From contig JAOUFY010000029.1 in NCBI GenBank assembly GCA_029857955.1, positions 1-32,901 of the forward strand: DNA of 32,901 nucleotides. Reading direction: 5' to 3'. Below, piece after piece: positions 6,613 to 31,701 of the stretch; the stretch's first letter is position 1; every line of letters starts with the position of its first letter. The translations under genes were made by a program, and so were the position numbers. This stretch comes from Spirochaetia bacterium (GTDB lineage: Bacteria; Spirochaetota; Leptospiria; Turneriellales; JAOUFE01). The notes beneath the pieces are model-generated. The model did not search any database, was not told the origin of the DNA, and saw nothing but the letters and a program-made list of their open reading frames with translations.

Positions 6613-9600
6613 TTATGATTTTTGTAAAAAAACTTCACATTCACCAAGTTTTTTTTCTGCATGTTCTTTGATGGAAGAGTCGTTTAAAATCCTGGCGGCA
6701 TCCTGCAGAGCCCAGCCATACTCCAGTTTGTTAGGGCCATTTTTAAGTACGGAAATTGATTTTTTAATTTCACTGATTGCCTGAGCGTGATTTCCGCAGG
6801 CTTCGTGATAAACAGCCAGAGCTCGATAAGTCGGCCCTTTAATATAAGGGAACGCTTTTGCTGATTTTTTCAATGTTCTGTAAGAACTATTAAACAAATT
6901 TTTACTGCGTTTTATAATTTCATTGTTTGTAGAGTTAATATTTGCGGCGGCAGCCTCTATTGTTGCGACCAATCCATAATGTACATGCGGTAATTTTACT
7001 CCATATTCCGTTATAGCAGCAAGCTCTTTTTCAGCCATTAGCAAAGCTTCTTCAGTATTACCTTCCAGTAAAAGAATTTTTGTATGAAACATCAATACAG
7101 CTGATAGGCCAGCCATATCTCGTACATCAATTGCAATTTGTTCTCCTTGATTTAAAATATCTTTAATTTGTGGATACGTTACTTCTCCCATCAGGTACTG
7201 GTTATAGGCCTTTCTGCCCGTTGACCAGCCAATGTACATTTTTGAATTTACTTCTCTGGCGGATTTTTCCATTTCTATCAAACCTTCACAGGCCTTTCGA
7301 AGATTTCCTTTATAGTAATGACCAATCGCAAGTACAATATGACTCATCATCATATCCCATAATTCACCTATCTGAGAAAGTGTTTTGATAGATTTTTCTT
7401 CCATTTCAATAACAAAATCGGGATTGTTGATATATGTTCCATGAACTCCAAGACGCTGGTAGGTTAAGCCCTGTGGATAAAGCATATTTGTTTTTTCAAG
7501 AATTTTCAGCGCACGATCAAAATAAATTCTGGCAGATTTTATAAATCCGATGCTTTGAATGATCGTTGCGTAATATGAGTAACCTAGCGAAAGATCCCAA
7601 TCATCATTCATTCGCTCAGTGAGGTTGACATGCGCATACGAAGCCCAGGCGACATGCTCAACGCTTTTTAAAAAATATATTTTTTGGAGAGTCATTAATA
7701 TTCGTGATTGTAATTTATATTTTTGTTGTTTGCGTTGAGTTTTACGGATGGCAAATGGAAATGCATTATGAAAACCGCGAATGACCATTTGCCGAAGAAG
7801 TCCTCGGATGGTTGCCCCCTTACTAACCGGCGTTTTTGTTCCAAGATATTTTAAAGCAGCCTCAAGATTATGAATGGCATTTAAAATATCGCCCTGTTCC
7901 TGATAACTTCGTCCGATACCAAATTTCATTTCTGCTAAATTAATGGGATCTTTGTAATATGCCAGACAAATAGCGTAAAGATCCCTTGAATCCTGAAAAT
8001 TTCCAAGGTTTCTGTTTACTATGGCCATTTCTTTTCGAATTTCATAAGCTTTATTGATATTTTTTCCGCGATAATCATCAAGTAAATCAAGAGCTCTCGA
8101 GTAATAATGAAGCGCGTCTTTATTTGCATATTTTTCTGCTGCTTTTTGGGCGGCGATGAGAGTATAATGAAAGGCTTTTTCATTTTGTCCGCCCTCGCTA
8201 AAATGAAAAGCTAAAGTTTCGGCATTTTCAATAAGGTTATTTTTATATTCATTTTCCATGATGTCGGCAAGCTGAGAATGTAGGTTACGCCTTGTTGACA
8301 ATAAAAGAGAATTGTAGGCGACATCTCGAATGATGGCATGTTTAAAAATATATGATAATGGACTTGTTGATTCAACGGGAGTAAGTTCAAGATTTTCTAA
8401 TACCCTAACTACAGCTTCAACCGAATTTTTAGTTAGAGCCGGATTCATTTTATGTAAAAGCTTAAACATAAAAATACGTCCGATAACAGAAGCAATTTTT
8501 AATAGAGCCTGTTCATCTTCAGACAATCGATCGATACGGGATAAAACTACATCTTGAAGGCTGTTGGGAATGGTTAAACTTTCTACAGACTGGTTAATTT
8601 CATTTTTTCCATTTTCAGCTGCGACAATGACTCCATTTTCTTTTAAGCTATATACAATCGACTCAATAAAGAATGGATTTCCATGGCTATTGACCATGAT
8701 TTTCTCTTCTATCGAGTTATTTTGTTCTTTTAAATTTAAACGTATACGAATCAATTCGATTGCTTCATCTTTTGGAAGTTCATTTAAAGCAATATTAGTG
8801 TAGTTACTTTTTGAATTGAGTATTTCTAGTTCTTTCCATGGACGACTTACGAGAAAAAATAAAACAGGATGATTTTTTAAATGTGTAAAAATATATTCAA
8901 GCAGGTTGAAAGAGGCTTCATCTACCCAGTGAATATCTTCAATTACAACAAGCAAAGGTTGTAGGTTTGAAATAAATTTTATAACTTCCAGCAAGATTTG
9001 TGAAAGGCGTTCCTTTTTTTGAAGTAATTCAAGGTTTTTGGTAAGAGATTCTTCTTCAACATTGATACTCGCCATGATGGCAACTGCATTTGCCCACTGC
9101 TCATCTACATCGTTTAGTTGCTTTAAAACACTTTTAATACTCAGTAGTTTTTGATCAACAGAATCGTTTTCACCAAGATTAAATACTAAAGATATTATTT
9201 CGCGCCATATATAGAAAGGTGTATTTTTTTCATAGGGAAAACATGATGTTGTAATTACTTTGATATTTTTATCGGGTAGATTTTTTAAAAAGGATGAAAT
9301 TAATCTTGATTTACCTACACCGGCTTCGCCGGCAATTGAAAGAATTTTGGTCTTATTATTCAGGCTTTCAAAACAAATATCATGTATTTTCTGCAATTCG
9401 GTTTTTCTGCCAATCATTGGCGTTGAAAAAAATTCATTGTACTCTTTTTTGGACTGATCTTTACCAATAAGTTTGTAAAAATTAACTTTTAATTCCATCC
9501 CTTTCAAGCTTACATCGTTAATTGATTTGAGTTCAAAATTAGAAGGCAGTTTGTTTCGTGTCGTAATATCTATATGTATGGTTTGATCTTCGCCGTATGT

Positions 9601-10788
9601 CATTAAACGAGAAGCAAGGTTTATAAAATTACTAACAAGAGTATATCCCTTTCTAAATTCTGCACCAAGGTCTCCGCAAAAAGATTTACCAGTCGAAATT
9701 CCTATTCTTAAATTTTTAATTCCAGGATAAGAATTTACATTATCGATTACTTTTAATGCAAACTCGGATGCCATGATTTCCTTATTTTCCATGGCTTGAG
9801 GGGCTCCAAACAAAATAAGAAAAACGTTACCCTTATCGCTAAAATCGGTTTGAACCAGCGTACCGCCAAAAGTTTCTGAACATTCCTGAAGAAAATCAAA
9901 AAAGTCATTCCATAGGTTTGCTACTTGAGCGATATCTTCGCTTAAGTTATTTTTTGCAATTCCAACAAATACTGAAGTTACTTCGCGAAAATCACCAATA
10001 AAGTTTTGAGTTGCATTATTTATTTTATTAAGTAAAATCGGCGGAAGAAAACGGGCTGATGATCTCGCCAGTTTTCGAGAGTTTGATGTAATATCGTATA
10101 TACTTTGGTCAAAATTATATTCCCTTGATATACCGGGATGAATAAGACGAAAATAATTATCTATAGCTTCGCCGGTTTTTGTATCGGGTAGAAAATTCCA
10201 GACAGTTGTAGAAACGATGATTTCATTTTTATTGGCAAGGTTTTCGCCCAATAATGCTTCTTCAACCGGTGGACCAATGATGCTCGCAGAAAGAAATCGT
10301 TTAATGCTGCCAAGAGTGATTTGATGAAAGTCTCCTATAGAAATGGAAATTTTAAGAAAAACCTGAATTTCATTTTCGCTTTTTTCTTCATTAATTTTTT
10401 GAATAACATCTTGAGTTTTAACAGCACAAAGCGCGGCTCTTAAGGCACATTCTTGCGATGTTTCATTTTGATTTTGCAATAATGCAACAAGAACAGAGTC
10501 TCCGGCAAATTGATAGGTAAAACCACCAAAGGAGCGTACAACATTTAATAAATTTGTATAATATTCTGTTAAAATTTCTTGCATAATTTCAGCAGATCTG
10601 TCTGTATCGGTGTGAGCTTTTGCCAGTGTTTCTGTAAGGGTTGTAAATCCAGCAATATCAAAAAATAAAATGGCTCCGGATAATTTTTCAGTTCTATAAA
10701 GAGATCTTCCGCTTTCTTTTAATCGATATAATATACGATCGGGAATATATGGTAATATTCTTTCTGGTTTTAATTCGTCGGTTTTCAT
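6613..10788 (-). CDS. Soluble-adenylyl-cyclase-like multidomain class III cyclase (C1-C2-AAA ATPase-TPR)
   Basis: A 1391-residue cytoplasmic protein laid out like mammalian sAC. C1 (about 35-210) keeps the metal-binding aspartates D44 (FFDIAGFT) and D97 (FAGDSVL). C2 (about 265-445) lacks the first metal site but keeps K319 (SDKG), T383, N390 and R394 (GYTLVSNFINLASR), the adenine- and ribose-side residues. One composite active site making cAMP is therefore predicted. A P-loop ATPase follows: Walker A GEAGVGKS (about 487-494) and Walker B LLVVIEDIHW (about 612-621), then a helical region with HAIIRDVAYNSLL and TPR-like repeats to the end. At the positions I align with the bicarbonate-binding Lys95 and Arg176 of human sAC there are Q93 and L179 (alignment from memory). 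A consensus promoter lies immediately upstream. Such proteins are common in bacteria with complex signalling; the input sensed by the ATPase/TPR half is unknown. Confidence 0.88.
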   Translation of the reverse strand: MKTDELKPERILPYIPDRILYRLKESGRSLYRTEKLSGAILFFDIAGFTTLTETLAKAHTDTDRSAEIMQEILTEYYTNLLNVVRSFGGFTYQFAGDSVLVALLQNQNETSQECALRAALCAVKTQDVIQKINEEKSENEIQVFLKISISIGDFHQITLGSIKRFLSASIIGPPVEEALLGENLANKNEIIVSTTVWNFLPDTKTGEAIDNYFRLIHPGISREYNFDQSIYDITSNSRKLARSSARFLPPILLNKINNATQNFIGDFREVTSVFVGIAKNNLSEDIAQVANLWNDFFDFLQECSETFGGTLVQTDFSDKGNVFLILFGAPQAMENKEIMASEFALKVIDNVNSYPGIKNLRIGISTGKSFCGDLGAEFRKGYTLVSNFINLASRLMTYGEDQTIHIDITTRNKLPSNFELKSINDVSLKGMELKVNFYKLIGKDQSKKEYNEFFSTPMIGRKTELQKIHDICFESLNNKTKILSIAGEAGVGKSRLISSFLKNLPDKNIKVITTSCFPYEKNTPFYIWREIISLVFNLGENDSVDQKLLSIKSVLKQLNDVDEQWANAVAIMASINVEEESLTKNLELLQKKERLSQILLEVIKFISNLQPLLVVIEDIHWVDEASFNLLEYIFTHLKNHPVLFFLVSRPWKELEILNSKSNYTNIALNELPKDEAIELIRIRLNLKEQNNSIEEKIMVNSHGNPFFIESIVYSLKENGVIVAAENGKNEINQSVESLTIPNSLQDVVLSRIDRLSEDEQALLKIASVIGRIFMFKLLHKMNPALTKNSVEAVVRVLENLELTPVESTSPLSYIFKHAIIRDVAYNSLLLSTRRNLHSQLADIMENEYKNNLIENAETLAFHFSEGGQNEKAFHYTLIAAQKAAEKYANKDALHYYSRALDLLDDYRGKNINKAYEIRKEMAIVNRNLGNFQDSRDLYAICLAYYKDPINLAEMKFGIGRSYQEQGDILNAIHNLEAALKYLGTKTPVSKGATIRGLLRQMVIRGFHNAFPFAIRKTQRKQQKYKLQSRILMTLQKIYFLKSVEHVAWASYAHVNLTERMNDDWDLSLGYSYYATIIQSIGFIKSARIYFDRALKILEKTNMLYPQGLTYQRLGVHGTYINNPDFVIEMEEKSIKTLSQIGELWDMMMSHIVLAIGHYYKGNLRKACEGLIEMEKSAREVNSKMYIGWSTGRKAYNQYLMGEVTYPQIKDILNQGEQIAIDVRDMAGLSAVLMFHTKILLLEGNTEEALLMAEKELAAITEYGVKLPHVHYGLVATIEAAAANINSTNNEIIKRSKNLFNSSYRTLKKSAKAFPYIKGPTYRALAVYHEACGNHAQAISEIKKSISVLKNGPNKLEYGWALQDAARILNDSSIKEHAEKKLGECEVFLQKS

Positions 10789-13097: not shown

Positions 13098-14243
13098 TCA
13101 AAACACATCATCCATTTTAATTGATGATTTTTCCTGAGCTCCTGATTTTTTTTGACGAAAAGCCCTTATTTGATTTTTCAGGGGAAGCCATTTTTGATTG
13201 TATGTTTTTGCCAACTCAAATACTTCATCACTTGAATAATTGTCGCTTTCTTTAACTGCCAGATTATAATCCCAGTTGCGAAAGCCCTTTGTCATAACAT
13301 AAATTGGGTCGGTAATTTGCTGAACAAAAATTCGAGAATAAATAAACATGAATGAAAATATACAACCTAGAATAGAAAGAAAAATAATCATATTCGATTT
13401 AGCATGCAATGCATCTGCCGGATAATAAGACAAAATTACTTCATAACCGTTTGCCAATTTTATCGGCTTACCTTGATTGTATGACTTATTTCTGAGATTT
13501 TCCTCATTTGGGTTACTAAATAATATTTCTCCATCTTTGGTTTTTAATTCAATGATGTCAGAATTAATTTTTGATCGTGAAACGTAGCTTTTAAGCCATT
13601 CGTTCATATTGGCATTTTCGCCGGTTGAACTTAACATTGTATTGATTTCTTTGGTCCTTTCAGCGAGGTATTCATCATGATCGCCGACTCGGGCAAAAGG
13701 CATGTATTGCGTAATAACAAGTACCATGACCAGCGTTACCACTGATATGGTAGAAATGCTTCCCATGTGCCGGTTGGTCATATTCGAATCGGTATTTTGT
13801 ATTTTACCGAAAAGCTTAAGAACCCGAATTAACCTTAATATTCTGGTTACACGAATTGCTTTGGCGGTTTTTAATATCGAGAAAAAGCCAAACCCGATGG
13901 ATTCCGATTCAGATCCTGATAAAAGCATAAACATGGCCGGGCCAGAAACCAAAAGTAAAAGGGGAATTGAAGACAGAGCATCAACCCATCCTCTCTGGTA
14001 CTTGATATAGAAACCAAATTCATTATTTTTCTTTGAAATTAATGATCGGGCAATGAATTCCATGGTAAAAAAAAGGTCAAATAAAAATCCAGCGATCATG
14101 ATTGCCGTCATTGTTTTATGAGACCAGTTATACACTGCGCCAAGATCTTCTATAATGGTATGCCCAATGACCAATACTATAGTAATGATGATCAAGTTTT
14201 CAATAACCGATGGAAAATGATCTTTATTTACTTCATGTTTCAT
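13098..14243 (-). CDS. Voltage-sensor-like membrane protein with extracytoplasmic domain and HAMP-like tail
   Basis: A 381-residue protein starting at the ATG at 14243, one base after the preceding stop and with AAAAGG/GGTTGG upstream; the frame stays open further upstream but overlaps that gene. Four N-terminal helices resemble S1-S4 of the ion-transport superfamily: about 14-34, 46-68 (acidic E62), 86-108 (D88) and an S4 with basic residues at every third position (K125, K128, R131, R134, R137, R140, K143). A helix at about 161-182 leads to roughly 100 extracytoplasmic residues (183-284) where a pore loop and filter would be expected; no filter is seen. A last helix (285-306) is followed by a HAMP-like segment (ITDPIYVMTKGF..., about 309-355) and a short tail. 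Function is unknown; it may be a voltage-responsive signalling protein rather than a channel. Confidence 0.75.
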   Translation of the reverse strand: MKHEVNKDHFPSVIENLIIITIVLVIGHTIIEDLGAVYNWSHKTMTAIMIAGFLFDLFFTMEFIARSLISKKNNEFGFYIKYQRGWVDALSSIPLLLLVSGPAMFMLLSGSESESIGFGFFSILKTAKAIRVTRILRLIRVLKLFGKIQNTDSNMTNRHMGSISTISVVTLVMVLVITQYMPFARVGDHDEYLAERTKEINTMLSSTGENANMNEWLKSYVSRSKINSDIIELKTKDGEILFSNPNEENLRNKSYNQGKPIKLANGYEVILSYYPADALHAKSNMIIFLSILGCIFSFMFIYSRIFVQQITDPIYVMTKGFRNWDYNLAVKESDNYSSDEVFELAKTYNQKWLPLKNQIRAFRQKKSGAQEKSSIKMDDVF

Positions 14244-14244
14244 A

Positions 14245-15186
14245 TTACCAACCTTTTTCTCCGGCAATTTGATACAACTCATCCAATATATCCTGGTCAA
14301 GACCATAAATTTTAGAATTACGACGATTGATTTGAAACCAGGATTTATCAGGGCTTTCAGCTCCTCGATCTTTTTTTTCCATGGGAATATAATCAGCAGA
14401 TCGAGCAGAAATGACCGCAATAAATTTTGCCACGCCGGAAATATCAGGAAAGTCAGACAGCATAAGATTGCTCTGGATTCCCGACATAAAAATCATTTCA
14501 GGAACTTTTCCAATTTTCGTTTCAAGAATGTCACGCAAAGAATTCAGCATCATTTCAAAGGATTTTTTATCTCCAGGAGATTTAGCTAAAGTACCGGTTA
14601 TCTCATTGGAACCATTTAGCGCTTTAACCGGAAAATGAAATAACGGGCGAAACAAGGTTGTTATACTCAGGTAAGTAATAAGCGCCTGCGGATCCATTTT
14701 TAATTTATCATGCCGCATAAATTCGTTATAAATATACTTATGCCTTTCGATTGCTTCCGGAATATAATTTGCATAATAGTTTAAAGAAATGACTTGAATG
14801 GCAGAGAGATAATGATCTCTCATTGCCTTTACCCGCATTTGTTCAATTAAAAAAGTTTTAAATTTTTCAGCATCAATATTAACATCAATTTCAAGCGATT
14901 GAATTACAGATGGAGACATCATGTTTTTGTAAATATAATCAATTTTGGGTATAATGGTTTCTAGCAATTTATCAACGAGTTCGGTCAACAATAAGGTAAC
15001 AGCCTCGTTCCATGTAAGATTAGGAAAATATTCAGTTTGAGAAAAAATTTTTTGCAATTGAGGCTGATTTTCGCGCAAAAAACTGAGAACCTGATTTTCT
15101 TTTTTATCGATACTTGTTTTTTGGAGAGCCGGGTTCATCCACAGTTTCCCCAGAAACTCTCTCATTTTATATCTTTCAGTCTCCAT
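14245..15186 (-). CDS. Conserved-looking hypothetical protein, partner of the voltage-sensor-like gene
   Basis: A soluble, mostly alpha-helical protein of 313 residues (321 if translation begins at the ATG at 15210). I do not recognise the family. There is no signal peptide, membrane helix or nucleotide-binding motif. A Pro/Gly-rich break near the middle (PVKALNGSNEITGT, SPGDKKS) separates two helical parts, and the C-terminus is DELYQIAGEKGW. I prefer METERYKM... at 15186 because the extra eight residues of the longer form look unlike a natural start and a TATATT box lies just above 15220; neither start has a Shine-Dalgarno site. Its stop is one base before the voltage-sensor gene's ATG, so the two are almost certainly translationally coupled. 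Confidence 0.7.
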   Translation of the reverse strand: METERYKMREFLGKLWMNPALQKTSIDKKENQVLSFLRENQPQLQKIFSQTEYFPNLTWNEAVTLLLTELVDKLLETIIPKIDYIYKNMMSPSVIQSLEIDVNIDAEKFKTFLIEQMRVKAMRDHYLSAIQVISLNYYANYIPEAIERHKYIYNEFMRHDKLKMDPQALITYLSITTLFRPLFHFPVKALNGSNEITGTLAKSPGDKKSFEMMLNSLRDILETKIGKVPEMIFMSGIQSNLMLSDFPDISGVAKFIAVISARSADYIPMEKKDRGAESPDKSWFQINRRNSKIYGLDQDILDELYQIAGEKGW

Positions 15187-23923: not shown

Positions 23924-25183
23924 TTATTTTTCATCGATAAAGAAAGATTCATTTTTTGAGGGATAGTTTTGTGACCTTACATCTTTTGAGTAATTTTCAA
24001 TTGCATTTACAGCTTCTGTGTGCATATCCATGTACTTGCGAAGAAATTTCGGCGAAAATTCGGCATCAAATCCCAGCAGATCATTGATTACCAGAACCTG
24101 ACCATCAACCTCTGGGCCGGCCCCGATACCAATGACAGGAATTTCTAAAGCCTTTGATAATTTGGCCCCCAATTCAGCAGGTATTAATTCAGCCAGAAGT
24201 GCAAATACACCAAGATCTTGCAGAGCTTTTGCTTCTTCAAATAGTTTTTTTTGAGAGGCATCATCTTTTGCCTGTAATTTATTGCCGCCGGTTTTTAATG
24301 TCGACTGCGGCATTAAACCAAGATGACCCATAACAGGAATTCCTGCTCTTATTATTTTTTTATATACATCGCTAAACTCTACACCGCCTTCAAGTTTTAG
24401 CGCATTGGCGCCGGTCTCTTGAATGATTCGACCGGCATTTCTTACGGCTTCGTCAGAATTGATCTGGTAGCTTAAAAATGGCATATCAATGATGATGAAT
24501 TTGTCAGGCGCAGCTTTTTTAACAGCTTTTCCATGATAGATCATTTGATCGACAGTAACCCCGATGGTTGAGCCATTTCCCTGGATGACATTGCCAAGAG
24601 AGTCGCCGACGAGCAATACATCAACGGAAGTTCTTGAAAGAATTTTAGCCATCGAATAATCATATGCGGTTAAAAAAACAATTTTTTGTTTTTCAATTTT
24701 TCTGGGAATAAAATCCAGTATTGTTTTAATGGGTTTTACATTCATACTTGTGTAATATGACGACTGCGGTGAATCAAAAGGTATCAATTGGGCTAGAATT
24801 TCAATTACCCAGCTTCGGGAATTATTCCCTGCATGCGGAATCTGCAATCGTTCACTGCGGTATTCTCCGGTAGACCACCATACTATGTCAATGTCTATTT
24901 CACGCGGTCCAAAACGATATGTTGTGGATCTTTTCAGGGTTTGTTCAACTTGTTTGGATATATTTAACAATTCTTCCGGTGAAAAATCTGTGTTGATGAA
25001 AATACCTTTGTTGATAAAATCGGGCTGGTCTTTAACAATTGCCGCTTCAGTGTATAAAAATTCACTTTCTTTTAATAACGTTATGCGTTCATTTTGCAGT
25101 AACCGAATTGCTTCAGAAATATTTTTCTTTTTATCGCCAAGGTTTGCGCCCAAGACAATGATATATTGATGTGTAAATTTCAT
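23924..25183 (-). CDS. folK/panB: HPPK-PanB fusion: folate pyrophosphokinase joined to ketopantoate hydroxymethyltransferase
   Basis: A 419-residue fusion. Residues 1-140 are HPPK (FolK), which transfers pyrophosphate from ATP to hydroxymethyl-dihydropterin: the N-terminal ILGANLGDKKKNI type motif reads IVLGANLGDK, and GPREIDIDIVWW carries the Mg-binding D97 and D99. From M147 the protein is a full-length PanB, which makes ketopantoate using 5,10-methylene-tetrahydrofolate: VGDSLG (D194), IIDMPF (D233), ALKLEGG (K263, E265), VMGHLGLMPQS, AELIPAELG (E332) and IGIGAGPEVDGQVLV. The two halves are in one frame with no internal stop. No Shine-Dalgarno precedes M147, so separate translation of PanB is not favoured. 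The link is metabolically sensible, because HPPK helps make the folate that PanB consumes. Confidence 0.93.
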   Translation of the reverse strand: MKFTHQYIIVLGANLGDKKKNISEAIRLLQNERITLLKESEFLYTEAAIVKDQPDFINKGIFINTDFSPEELLNISKQVEQTLKRSTTYRFGPREIDIDIVWWSTGEYRSERLQIPHAGNNSRSWVIEILAQLIPFDSPQSSYYTSMNVKPIKTILDFIPRKIEKQKIVFLTAYDYSMAKILSRTSVDVLLVGDSLGNVIQGNGSTIGVTVDQMIYHGKAVKKAAPDKFIIIDMPFLSYQINSDEAVRNAGRIIQETGANALKLEGGVEFSDVYKKIIRAGIPVMGHLGLMPQSTLKTGGNKLQAKDDASQKKLFEEAKALQDLGVFALLAELIPAELGAKLSKALEIPVIGIGAGPEVDGQVLVINDLLGFDAEFSPKFLRKYMDMHTEAVNAIENYSKDVRSQNYPSKNESFFIDEK

Positions 25184-29592: not shown

Positions 29593-31701
29593 TTATTCCC
29601 AGATTGTATCGCTTACTTTATCGAAAGATTTACTCGTTAAGTTAAAAATTCCGCTCCATTCTTCTTCAGGAGGGAAGTTTTGTAAATCTTTACACCTTTT
29701 AATAAATACCTGCAGAACGGTATCTTGCGGACACTGTTGTGCAATTTTTTGGAAATCAATTTCTGCTTGATTAAATTTTCCAGAAATGTATAATTGACGG
29801 GCTGCTTGAAATTCAACTGCATAGGATGATTTTTGATTAGAAACAGATACTTCATTGCAATTATATACCTCATAAATCTTAACTTGATTGCTTTTTCCTT
29901 TTAAATACACGCTGTCAATTTCTCTTAATTGAAATTCCTGCGGATTTTTTAACTCTTTAACTACACTGTCACTGACTAAAATTTGTGTATTGTAAAGTTT
30001 GGTTAAATCTTCCATTCGGCTGGCAATGTTTACATTATCGCCAATTACAGTGTATTCCATTCTAACAGATGACCCGATATTTCCTGCTAAAACAGTCCCC
30101 GTATGAATACCAATGCCCATTTTTAATGTAGGCAGGCTTTCACTGATAAAAACATGGTTTAATGATTCCAGGGCTTTTGACATGGCAATGGCAGAGCGTA
30201 TGGCATTATCACAATGACTTGGAGATTCAAGAGGTACATTAAAAATTGCCATAACTGCATCACCAATGTATTTATTTACAAGTCCATGATTTAAAGACAC
30301 CTCCTGTGACAGCGCTTCCAGATAACGGTTTAATATTTTTACAATTAATTCTGGATTATGCTTCTCGGATAGTTCTGTAAATTTTCGAATATCGCAAAAT
30401 AAAATTGTAGCGATTTTTTCTTTTCCTCCCATTTCAAGATTGCCCTTTAACATGTAATCGCGAATAGCTGGATCAACGACTTTTCCAAAGGTTTCTGAAA
30501 CTCTTTCTTTTTCAAGTTGAAGGACTCTAATTCGATGAGCAAGACCAAATGATAATATGGTAACTTCTATGGCATTTCCAATCTGCATGGAGAAGGGAGT
30601 AAAAAACGGAATAAAAAGATTTGCTGTTTTTGCTCCATAAATTATTACGCCAAGTAAAAAAAATATCCAGGCAGCTAAAAAGTAACGAGCAGATTCATTT
30701 CTTTTTGCGGCTAAAACTCCAACATAAATTAAAAAGATACTCATTCCAATCATTAGAAAGAGCGTCATTTGAATTCCGTAGTAAAAACCAGATTTCCATA
30801 GTACAAAAATTGGTAATAAAGATAAAATTATAAGCCCCATAAAAACAAAATATATGCGTGGAAATTCTGTTTTAATGTTTAAATAACTCGTTGAAAAAAG
30901 AATAATAACGATCATGGTGATCGCGCCAAGGTATACCCGCAGATCACGCAGAAACTGGTAATTGGTTGTATTTATAATTTCATCCAAATAGCCGTCGAGT
31001 CCGGCCTGCGCAATTCCAAATGATAAAATATAAAGAACATAGTAAATATAACTTTTTTCTCTAACTGTTAAAAAGATAAAAAAATTATAAAAAAACATTA
31101 CAAAAAGAATTCCATAGTAAAGTCCGCTAAAAAACATTTCAACATAATTTGTTCGAGCTAAAGTTGTTGCTGTTATAATTTTAACGGGAAGTTCCATGGT
31201 TTCATCGGTTACAACCCTGAAATAAAAGGTGCTTTCATCGTCGGCAACGATGTTTAATGGAATAACGATTTTCCGGTGCAGAATCTCTCTTTTATCAAAT
31301 GCAAAATCTTTACCATATTTAATTTCTTTAAATCTTCCATTTTGATCAGGTGTGTATAAGCTGATGTGTTCAAGAAGGGGAAATTCAAATAAAAGATAAC
31401 GTTCTTTAGCTTTTTGGCTGTTATTTCTTAAAGTAAACTTTCCCCATATCGCAGATTTTGTGAAACTGTATGCCGGATAAGCTTTTTTATTAAGTGTAAA
31501 TTTTTTTTGATTTTCAGGATTCAAAATATCTTTTATGGTTAAATTTGAGGATTTATCTTCATATAAATATAAATATTTTAACAAATTTTGTTCTTCATTA
31601 TTTTTATTTTGCAAGTTATCTGATAATGCCAGCGAATTCCCGTAAATATTAAAACATAAAATGGCAGATAATAGATAAATAATGGCAAATAACTTTCTCA
31701 T
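29593..31701 (-). CDS. 7TM receptor (7TMR-DISM) adenylate cyclase
   Basis: A 702-residue membrane receptor enzyme. A signal peptide (1-22) is followed by an extracytoplasmic 7TMR-DISMED2-like domain (about 40-180; AIWGKFTLRN and YLLFEFPLLEHISLY are typical). Seven membrane helices span about 187-390, then a short coiled linker. The class III cyclase domain (about 428-600) has a full catalytic set: metal D437 (FCDIRKFT) and D481 (YIGDAVMA), purine-contacting K477 and T551, and N558/R562 (GDNVNIASR). This set favours ATP over GTP, and a homodimer would have two sites. The C-terminal ~90 residues have one TPR-like helix pair and a Trp-containing tail. It probably senses an external ligand, perhaps a sugar, and makes cAMP; the ligand is unknown. 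It is coupled to the downstream lipase-like gene. Confidence 0.93.
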   Translation of the reverse strand: MRKLFAIIYLLSAILCFNIYGNSLALSDNLQNKNNEEQNLLKYLYLYEDKSSNLTIKDILNPENQKKFTLNKKAYPAYSFTKSAIWGKFTLRNNSQKAKERYLLFEFPLLEHISLYTPDQNGRFKEIKYGKDFAFDKREILHRKIVIPLNIVADDESTFYFRVVTDETMELPVKIITATTLARTNYVEMFFSGLYYGILFVMFFYNFFIFLTVREKSYIYYVLYILSFGIAQAGLDGYLDEIINTTNYQFLRDLRVYLGAITMIVIILFSTSYLNIKTEFPRIYFVFMGLIILSLLPIFVLWKSGFYYGIQMTLFLMIGMSIFLIYVGVLAAKRNESARYFLAAWIFFLLGVIIYGAKTANLFIPFFTPFSMQIGNAIEVTILSFGLAHRIRVLQLEKERVSETFGKVVDPAIRDYMLKGNLEMGGKEKIATILFCDIRKFTELSEKHNPELIVKILNRYLEALSQEVSLNHGLVNKYIGDAVMAIFNVPLESPSHCDNAIRSAIAMSKALESLNHVFISESLPTLKMGIGIHTGTVLAGNIGSSVRMEYTVIGDNVNIASRMEDLTKLYNTQILVSDSVVKELKNPQEFQLREIDSVYLKGKSNQVKIYEVYNCNEVSVSNQKSSYAVEFQAARQLYISGKFNQAEIDFQKIAQQCPQDTVLQVFIKRCKDLQNFPPEEEWSGIFNLTSKSFDKVSDTIWE

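Follow-up and report, generated by a model that had tools for sequence, protein, structure and literature searches.

A putative membrane-potential receptor of Spirochaetota that joins a pore-less voltage sensor to a HAMP-like element

Two adjacent genes encode a voltage-sensor protein and a soluble partner

The window, by which we mean the whole stretch of 32,901 nucleotides that was analyzed, carries on its minus strand an open reading frame for a membrane protein of 381 residues, here called the receptor, and directly upstream of it a gene for a soluble protein of 313 residues, here called the partner. The receptor frame runs from an ATG at 14243 to a stop codon at 13098-13100, and the TAA stop of the partner gene (14247-14245) lies one base before this ATG, so that the coupled partner gene proposed in an earlier, sequence-only reading of this DNA is real. 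The receptor frame is also open 5' of the ATG, as far as a TTG at 14420; we placed the start at 14243 because it lies one base past the stop of the upstream gene and because the homologues start at a similar position. A scan for promoters and terminators gave results close to chance. The features of the two genes, with the evidence on which each is based, are the following:

14245..15186, minus strand: partner, 313 aa, soluble, predicted mostly helical and of unrecognised fold; its gene is the upstream one of the two (alignments, AF2, adjacency)
14248..14370, minus strand: conserved C-terminal motif of the partner, DRGAESPDKSWFxIxRRxAKxxGxDxxxLDELYxIAxEEGW (alignments A2/A4)
13098..14243, minus strand: putative voltage-sensor/HAMP receptor protein, 381 aa (ORF, Pfam Ion_trans, homologues, AF2)
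14130..14210, minus strand: predicted S1 helix, residues 12-38, with conserved E15 and an acidic residue at 32/33 (AF2, conservation)
14028..14120, minus strand: predicted S2 helix, residues 42-72, with D56, F59, E62, F63 and R66 (AF2, conservation)
13917..13991, minus strand: predicted S3 helix, residues 85-109, with G85, W86, D88, S92 and P94 (AF2; invariant in 77 homologues)
13815..13871, minus strand: S4 gating-charge array K125, K128, R131, R134, R137, R140, K143 (7/7 basic in 76/77 homologues)
13785..13808, minus strand: S4-TM5 linker, residues 146-153, with conserved S153, followed by M155 and H159 (AF2, conservation)
13704..13784, minus strand: predicted TM5 helix, residues 154-180, in the position of S5 (AF2)
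13425..13703, minus strand: predicted extracytoplasmic alpha/beta domain, residues ~181-273, in the position of the pore loop; variable, missing in one lineage (AF2, conservation, deletions in L205/L206)
13335..13424, minus strand: predicted TM6 helix, residues 274-303, modelled as running without a break into the HAMP helix (AF2)
13170..13334, minus strand: HAMP-like element, residues 304-358 (hhalign and shuffled controls)
13101..13169, minus strand: C-terminal tail, residues 359-381, KSxLSxDDLL-like in nearer relatives (alignments)

Several other genes of the window are of interest in their own right. A protein of 1391 residues (6613-10788, minus strand) carries adenylate/guanylate cyclase sequence in two stretches, an AAA ATPase and TPR repeats according to Pfam; its gene shares its strand with the receptor pair, from which it is separated by recG on the opposite strand. 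By eye from the translations, the product of 23924-25183 (minus strand, 419 aa) seems to join FolK (HPPK) to PanB (ketopantoate hydroxymethyltransferase), and that of 29593-31701 (minus strand, 702 aa) resembles a membrane receptor of the 7TMR-DISM type that ends in a class III cyclase.

Against the Pfam profile Ion_trans (PF00520), the receptor scored 32.7 bits (curated cut-off 25; E=5.7e-8), with residues 14-177 aligned to positions 4-140 of the 241 of the profile. This significant match takes in residues 14-147, for which the sequence-only reading had expected a voltage-sensor profile. A true channel encoded on another contig of the same genome matched the profile over positions 2-240, which places the end of the receptor's match at the start of the pore half. 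The profile was also matched, at E<=0.05, by 76 of 77 receptor homologues. Weak NCBIfam similarities, both far under the cut-off, were found to CsrD (residues 159-303, E=2.8e-5) and to an ArsS-family kinase (residues 162-356, E=1.6e-4), a first sign that the second half of the receptor may resemble the input module of a sensor kinase. No HisKA/HATPase or MCP signalling domain was detected in the receptor with Pfam and NCBIfam, or in its homologues with Pfam, and Pfam found no PTEN-like phosphatase domain in the receptor or the 77 homologues. As the sequence-only reading had stated, the receptor has no output domain of its own, be it a kinase, cyclase, GGDEF or MCP output.

A predicted extracytoplasmic domain and a HAMP-like element follow the voltage sensor

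The AF2 model of the receptor (mean pLDDT 87.3, pTM 0.82, 77 sequences) contained helices at residues 12-38, 42-72, 85-109, 117-145 (broken at 132), 154-180, 274-322 and 340-367. Between TM5 and the continuous helix 274-322, the model places an alpha/beta domain (~181-273) and no re-entrant pore loop, in agreement with the initial description of two helices flanking an extracytoplasmic stretch without a filter. Searched against the PDB with Foldseek, the model best matched an integrative model of the sensor kinase WalK (E=0.0098, prob 0.99, 256 columns); less significant matches below it included HCN1, Nav, KCNQ and Ci-VSP, every match being individually weak. We infer that the WalK match belongs to the receptor residues past S4.

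The stretch after TM6 had been called HAMP-like in the sequence-only reading, a description that stood in profile-profile comparison but not at the Pfam threshold: HAMP (PF00672) stayed under its cut-off in all 77 members scanned, with one at E=0.016 and none of the rest at E<=0.05. When the C-terminal profile of the receptor was aligned with hhalign to 38 HAMP-region sequences of related genomes, the match reached prob 91 and E=1.1e-6, in a register in which the proline of AS1 and the DE and N of AS2 coincide. After the removal of one row and realignment, the score was 32.9, compared to 8.9 for the reversed profile and at most 14.3 across 60 column-shuffled profiles. These comparisons support homology of the C-terminal element to HAMP, with a connector that appears atypical. 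The layout predicted behind the voltage sensor (transmembrane helix, extracytoplasmic domain, transmembrane helix, HAMP-like element) is that of bacterial sensor kinases and chemoreceptors. The tail that ends the chain (residues 359-381) is proposed as a candidate docking motif.

The S4 charges are near-invariant in most of the receptor family

The seven basic residues of the S4-like helix, claimed earlier to lie at exact three-residue spacing from K125 to K143, are indeed found so in the translation (K125, K128, R131, R134, R137, R140 and K143), and the acidic residues claimed for S2 and S3 are present as E62 and D88. Together with F59 in S2, E62 presumably corresponds to the gating-charge transfer centre established for Kv channels. 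In the alignment of 77 homologues, a set that is biased because 76 of them came from a scan that required either of two peptide patterns, the first or second of which had to be present and one of which falls within S4, the S4 positions were basic at 7/7 sites in 76 sequences and at 6/7 in the remaining one. The two positions after each basic site (+1 and +2) were never K or R in these 77 sequences. The S4 charge spacing exceeds the chance expectation in this set, most of which comes from the pattern-based scan. D56, F59, E62 and R66 were present in every ungapped row and D88 in all rows, and the mean frequency of the top residue was 0.71 in S4, 0.65 in the S4-TM5 linker, 0.63 in the HAMP-like element and 0.32 in the ectodomain. 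In a separate set of 21 members from a plain homology search, K128, R131, R134, R137 and R140 were invariant, and all members tabulated had the seven basic S4 residues.

The sequence-only reading had left room for a receptor of membrane potential alone or of potential together with an external ligand. Given that the ectodomain is poorly conserved and deleted in one lineage, membrane potential would be the more constrained input, and the part of the claim that concerns a ligand is less supported.

The partner gene is a near-constant neighbor

Among the best 80 of 100 loci recovered in a scan of 84,980 species genomes (see below), 70 had the partner gene directly upstream on the same strand; at four of the ten others, the receptor gene stands at a contig end that leaves no room for it, so that the partner is present at 70 of the 76 loci that can be assessed. 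In 69 of the 70, the opening of the receptor frame comes at most 25 bases past the partner stop. Of the neighbor clusters examined, that of the partner alone was near-universal and no other was as constant. Beta-barrel proteins, ComFB, HD, PP-loop ATPase, PilZ and aconitase neighbors were considered as functional clues and set aside as local synteny only.

The partner was modelled with high confidence (AF2 pLDDT 93.9, pTM 0.91) as a mainly helical protein with a beta hairpin, and its C-terminal motif, DRGAESPDKSWF...GW, is strongly conserved in the alignments. No convincing match to it was found in Pfam, NCBIfam, PDB sequences, PDB structures or viral structures. An assignment as HD-GYP was rejected, as the Foldseek comparison with Bd1817 was not significant (TM ~0.3) and hhalign gave a prob of 0.5. 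The suggestion that the partner may supply the output remains plausible in light of the near-obligate adjacency, even though no recognisable output fold is seen in it.

The receptor family is spread across Spirochaetota but patchy

A homology search in 60 relatives and the genome itself gave a match in 27 of the 61. The scan of 84,980 species genomes, through which alone phyla outside Spirochaetota were covered, returned 100 related loci, and the best 80 of these were spirochaete records except for one filed under Hydrogenedentota and one named only 'bacterium'. Within 393 Spirochaetota genomes, 113 matched the receptor profile and 121 the partner profile, and the family occurs in 59 of 168 genera of the phylum, which makes it phylum-wide but patchy. 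The pair, for which a survey of Leptospirales had been suggested at the outset, is kept well beyond that order, across Spirochaetota.

Natural variants bear on the alternative readings

Of the readings that compete with a voltage receptor, the one that survives best, albeit as an unlikely one, is that the four-helix domain has a structural or assembly role and that the ectodomain or the membrane provides the signal. It draws on lineages in which the S4 charge is degraded yet both receptor and partner are retained. In a family inferred to be Borreliaceae (f38; chromosomes near 0.9 Mb, gene order flaA-cheA-cheW-cheX-cheY), the partner and a receptor with ectodomain are kept, convergent to the chemotaxis operon, while S4 is shortened to KxRxxRxxR and E62 of S2 is lost. 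On the map of B. burgdorferi B31, the two genes would probably be BB0674/BB0675; BB0673 and BB0674 were not found in the open-licence literature searched. Between the receptor gene and the end of the che operon in these probable Borreliaceae lies a gene for a 176-aa protein without a Pfam match (L192:8603-9130 and L191:8406-8933, both minus strand). A second family, f14, probably Brachyspiraceae, keeps the pair with the S4 charges gone, and some members of family f23 (L207, L208) have lost the ectodomain as well as most S4 charges. The persistence of receptor and partner in these charge-poor lineages implies that the unit has some voltage-independent role.

Against a purely structural role of the four-helix domain stand the near-invariance, across most of the family, of the S4 charges and of the charge-transfer residues next to a variable ectodomain, and the reverse type of variant: in L205 and L206 (family f36), whose open frames are reduced to 312 and 301 aa, the ectodomain is missing and the seven S4 charges, HAMP and partner are kept. 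In addition, seven basic S4 residues are found in the distant homologues L209 and L213-L215, which suggests that the charge loss is derived, the basis for this direction being outgroup comparison only. L213-L215 and similar proteins form a second group that has the same layout with another C-terminus. The voltage-sensor proteins of this group (L213:1732-3129, L214:2211-3698, L215:2441-3706, L236:877-2247 and L242:1306-2736) show the order TM-ectodomain-TM and a different conserved C-terminus. Related membrane proteins with a degenerate sensor region and open frames of 336-416 aa were also seen in family f6 (L233:691-1938, L234:1459-2466, L241:1375-2547).

It is likewise improbable that the receptor is an accessory subunit that co-assembles with a separate channel or sets its voltage range, with the ectodomain and the HAMP-like part as assembly elements. 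This possibility arises from genus g18 (L066-L068, also L019-L022), in which the usual partner is missing, no divergent partner being found at these loci even with filters off, and a gene for a channel of the cyclic-nucleotide-gated type lies closely 3' of the receptor gene, in most cases overlapping its end by a few bases (L066:2431-3807, L067:11137-12549, L068:11137-12564). The channel of L068 matched Ion_trans at E=5.1e-30 and cNMP_binding at E=1.4e-20. However, such a neighbor occurs in g18 only and no channel recurs among the other neighbor clusters examined, the usual neighbor being the soluble partner. A HAMP-like element would also be unexpected for a channel subunit, as would the fusion in L209, where the sensor, two TM helices with the ectodomain between them, the HAMP-like part and HD-GYP share a single open frame of 604 aa (Ion_trans E=1.6e-17, HD_5 E=7.8e-25); this fusion is a single case from a MAG that is 85% complete and 6% contaminated. 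It indicates that on at least one occasion this input architecture became linked to a signalling output, which supports a signalling role of the receptor and leaves the function of the partner aside.

Far less credible still is a voltage-gated proton channel of the Hv1 type, in which the sensor domain itself would conduct. Hv1, too, has no pore apart from its sensor domain, and S4 is fully charged here, but the receptor has neither the mid-S1 Asp nor the S4 Trp that mark Hv1, its acidic S1 residues (E15, E32/D33) sit at the helix ends, and Hv1 has no TM5-ectodomain-TM6-HAMP. Finally, a channel with an unusual filter was rejected on the grounds that the PF00520 match lacks the pore half, that AF2 predicts an alpha/beta domain in its place and that no filter-like motif was found in the 77 receptor homologues.

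A model for membrane-potential signalling through HAMP

We therefore favor, with a probability of about two in three, the reading that the gene encodes not a channel but a membrane-potential receptor that signals through HAMP to its partner. In the model that we propose, the receptor is probably a dimer, as HAMP domains normally are. A change in voltage would move S4, and the conserved S4-TM5 linker would pass this movement to TM5/TM6 and HAMP, whose state, along with the C-terminal tail, might change how the soluble partner binds or how active it is; the partner would then convey the signal to the cytoplasm. The extracytoplasmic domain could tune or gate the response and would be optional for the core mechanism. 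The conservation pattern fits a division of roles with HAMP as the relay, the partner as the output and the voltage sensor as the input that, in most lineages, is under the tightest constraint. The wider evolutionary version of this reading, to which we give somewhat better than even odds, is that a dedicated membrane-potential receptor of long standing within Spirochaetota couples a pore-less sensor and HAMP to the control of a soluble effector of new fold, voltage sensing having later been lost in host-associated lineages.

The membrane potential of bacteria changes during growth, stress and signalling, and to our knowledge no dedicated bacterial protein other than a channel has been described that reads it and signals inward, nor was one found in the open-licence papers searched. 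The receptor/partner pair would make bacterial voltage signalling directly testable. In the partner, it also brings to light a protein family of unrecognised fold, which in probable Borreliaceae lies beside the flaA-cheA-cheW-cheX-cheY operon as well.

Comparison with known systems

HAMP receptors are ubiquitous, and no description of a voltage sensor joined to HAMP was found in the open-licence literature searched. Such a union of a channel-type voltage sensor with HAMP would link two well-studied allosteric machines in a compact system that is testable in cultivated spirochaetes.

The receptor shares with the sensors of voltage-gated channels (the first half of PF00520) the order S1-S4, the FxxE of S2, the D of S3 and a basic residue at every third position of S4; unlike in these channels, its alignment to the profile goes no further than position 140 of 241, a pore loop and selectivity filter are missing, and another domain follows past TM5. 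Channels of the SthK type, the cyclic-nucleotide-gated channels of spirochaetes, have similar sensor helices, and in g18 the receptor gene has a channel gene of this domain type next to it, yet the receptor itself has neither the pore nor the cNMP-binding domain. Pore-less voltage sensors are known in eukaryotes from voltage-sensing phosphatases and Hv1, and the use of a sensor without a channel pore would be common to the receptor, the Ci-VSP/TPTE phosphatases and Hv1. The receptor differs from the former in having no phosphatase domain and from the latter in having neither the S1 Asp nor the S4 Trp, and from both in the TM5-ectodomain-TM6-HAMP that follows its sensor. This second part (residues ~159-356) resembles, according to weak NCBIfam similarities, Foldseek and the HAMP profile, the module of transmembrane helix, periplasmic domain, transmembrane helix and HAMP found in WalK, the N-terminus of CsrD and ArsS; in contrast to these proteins, the receptor bears a four-helix voltage sensor in front of the module and no kinase, cyclase, GGDEF or MCP output behind it.
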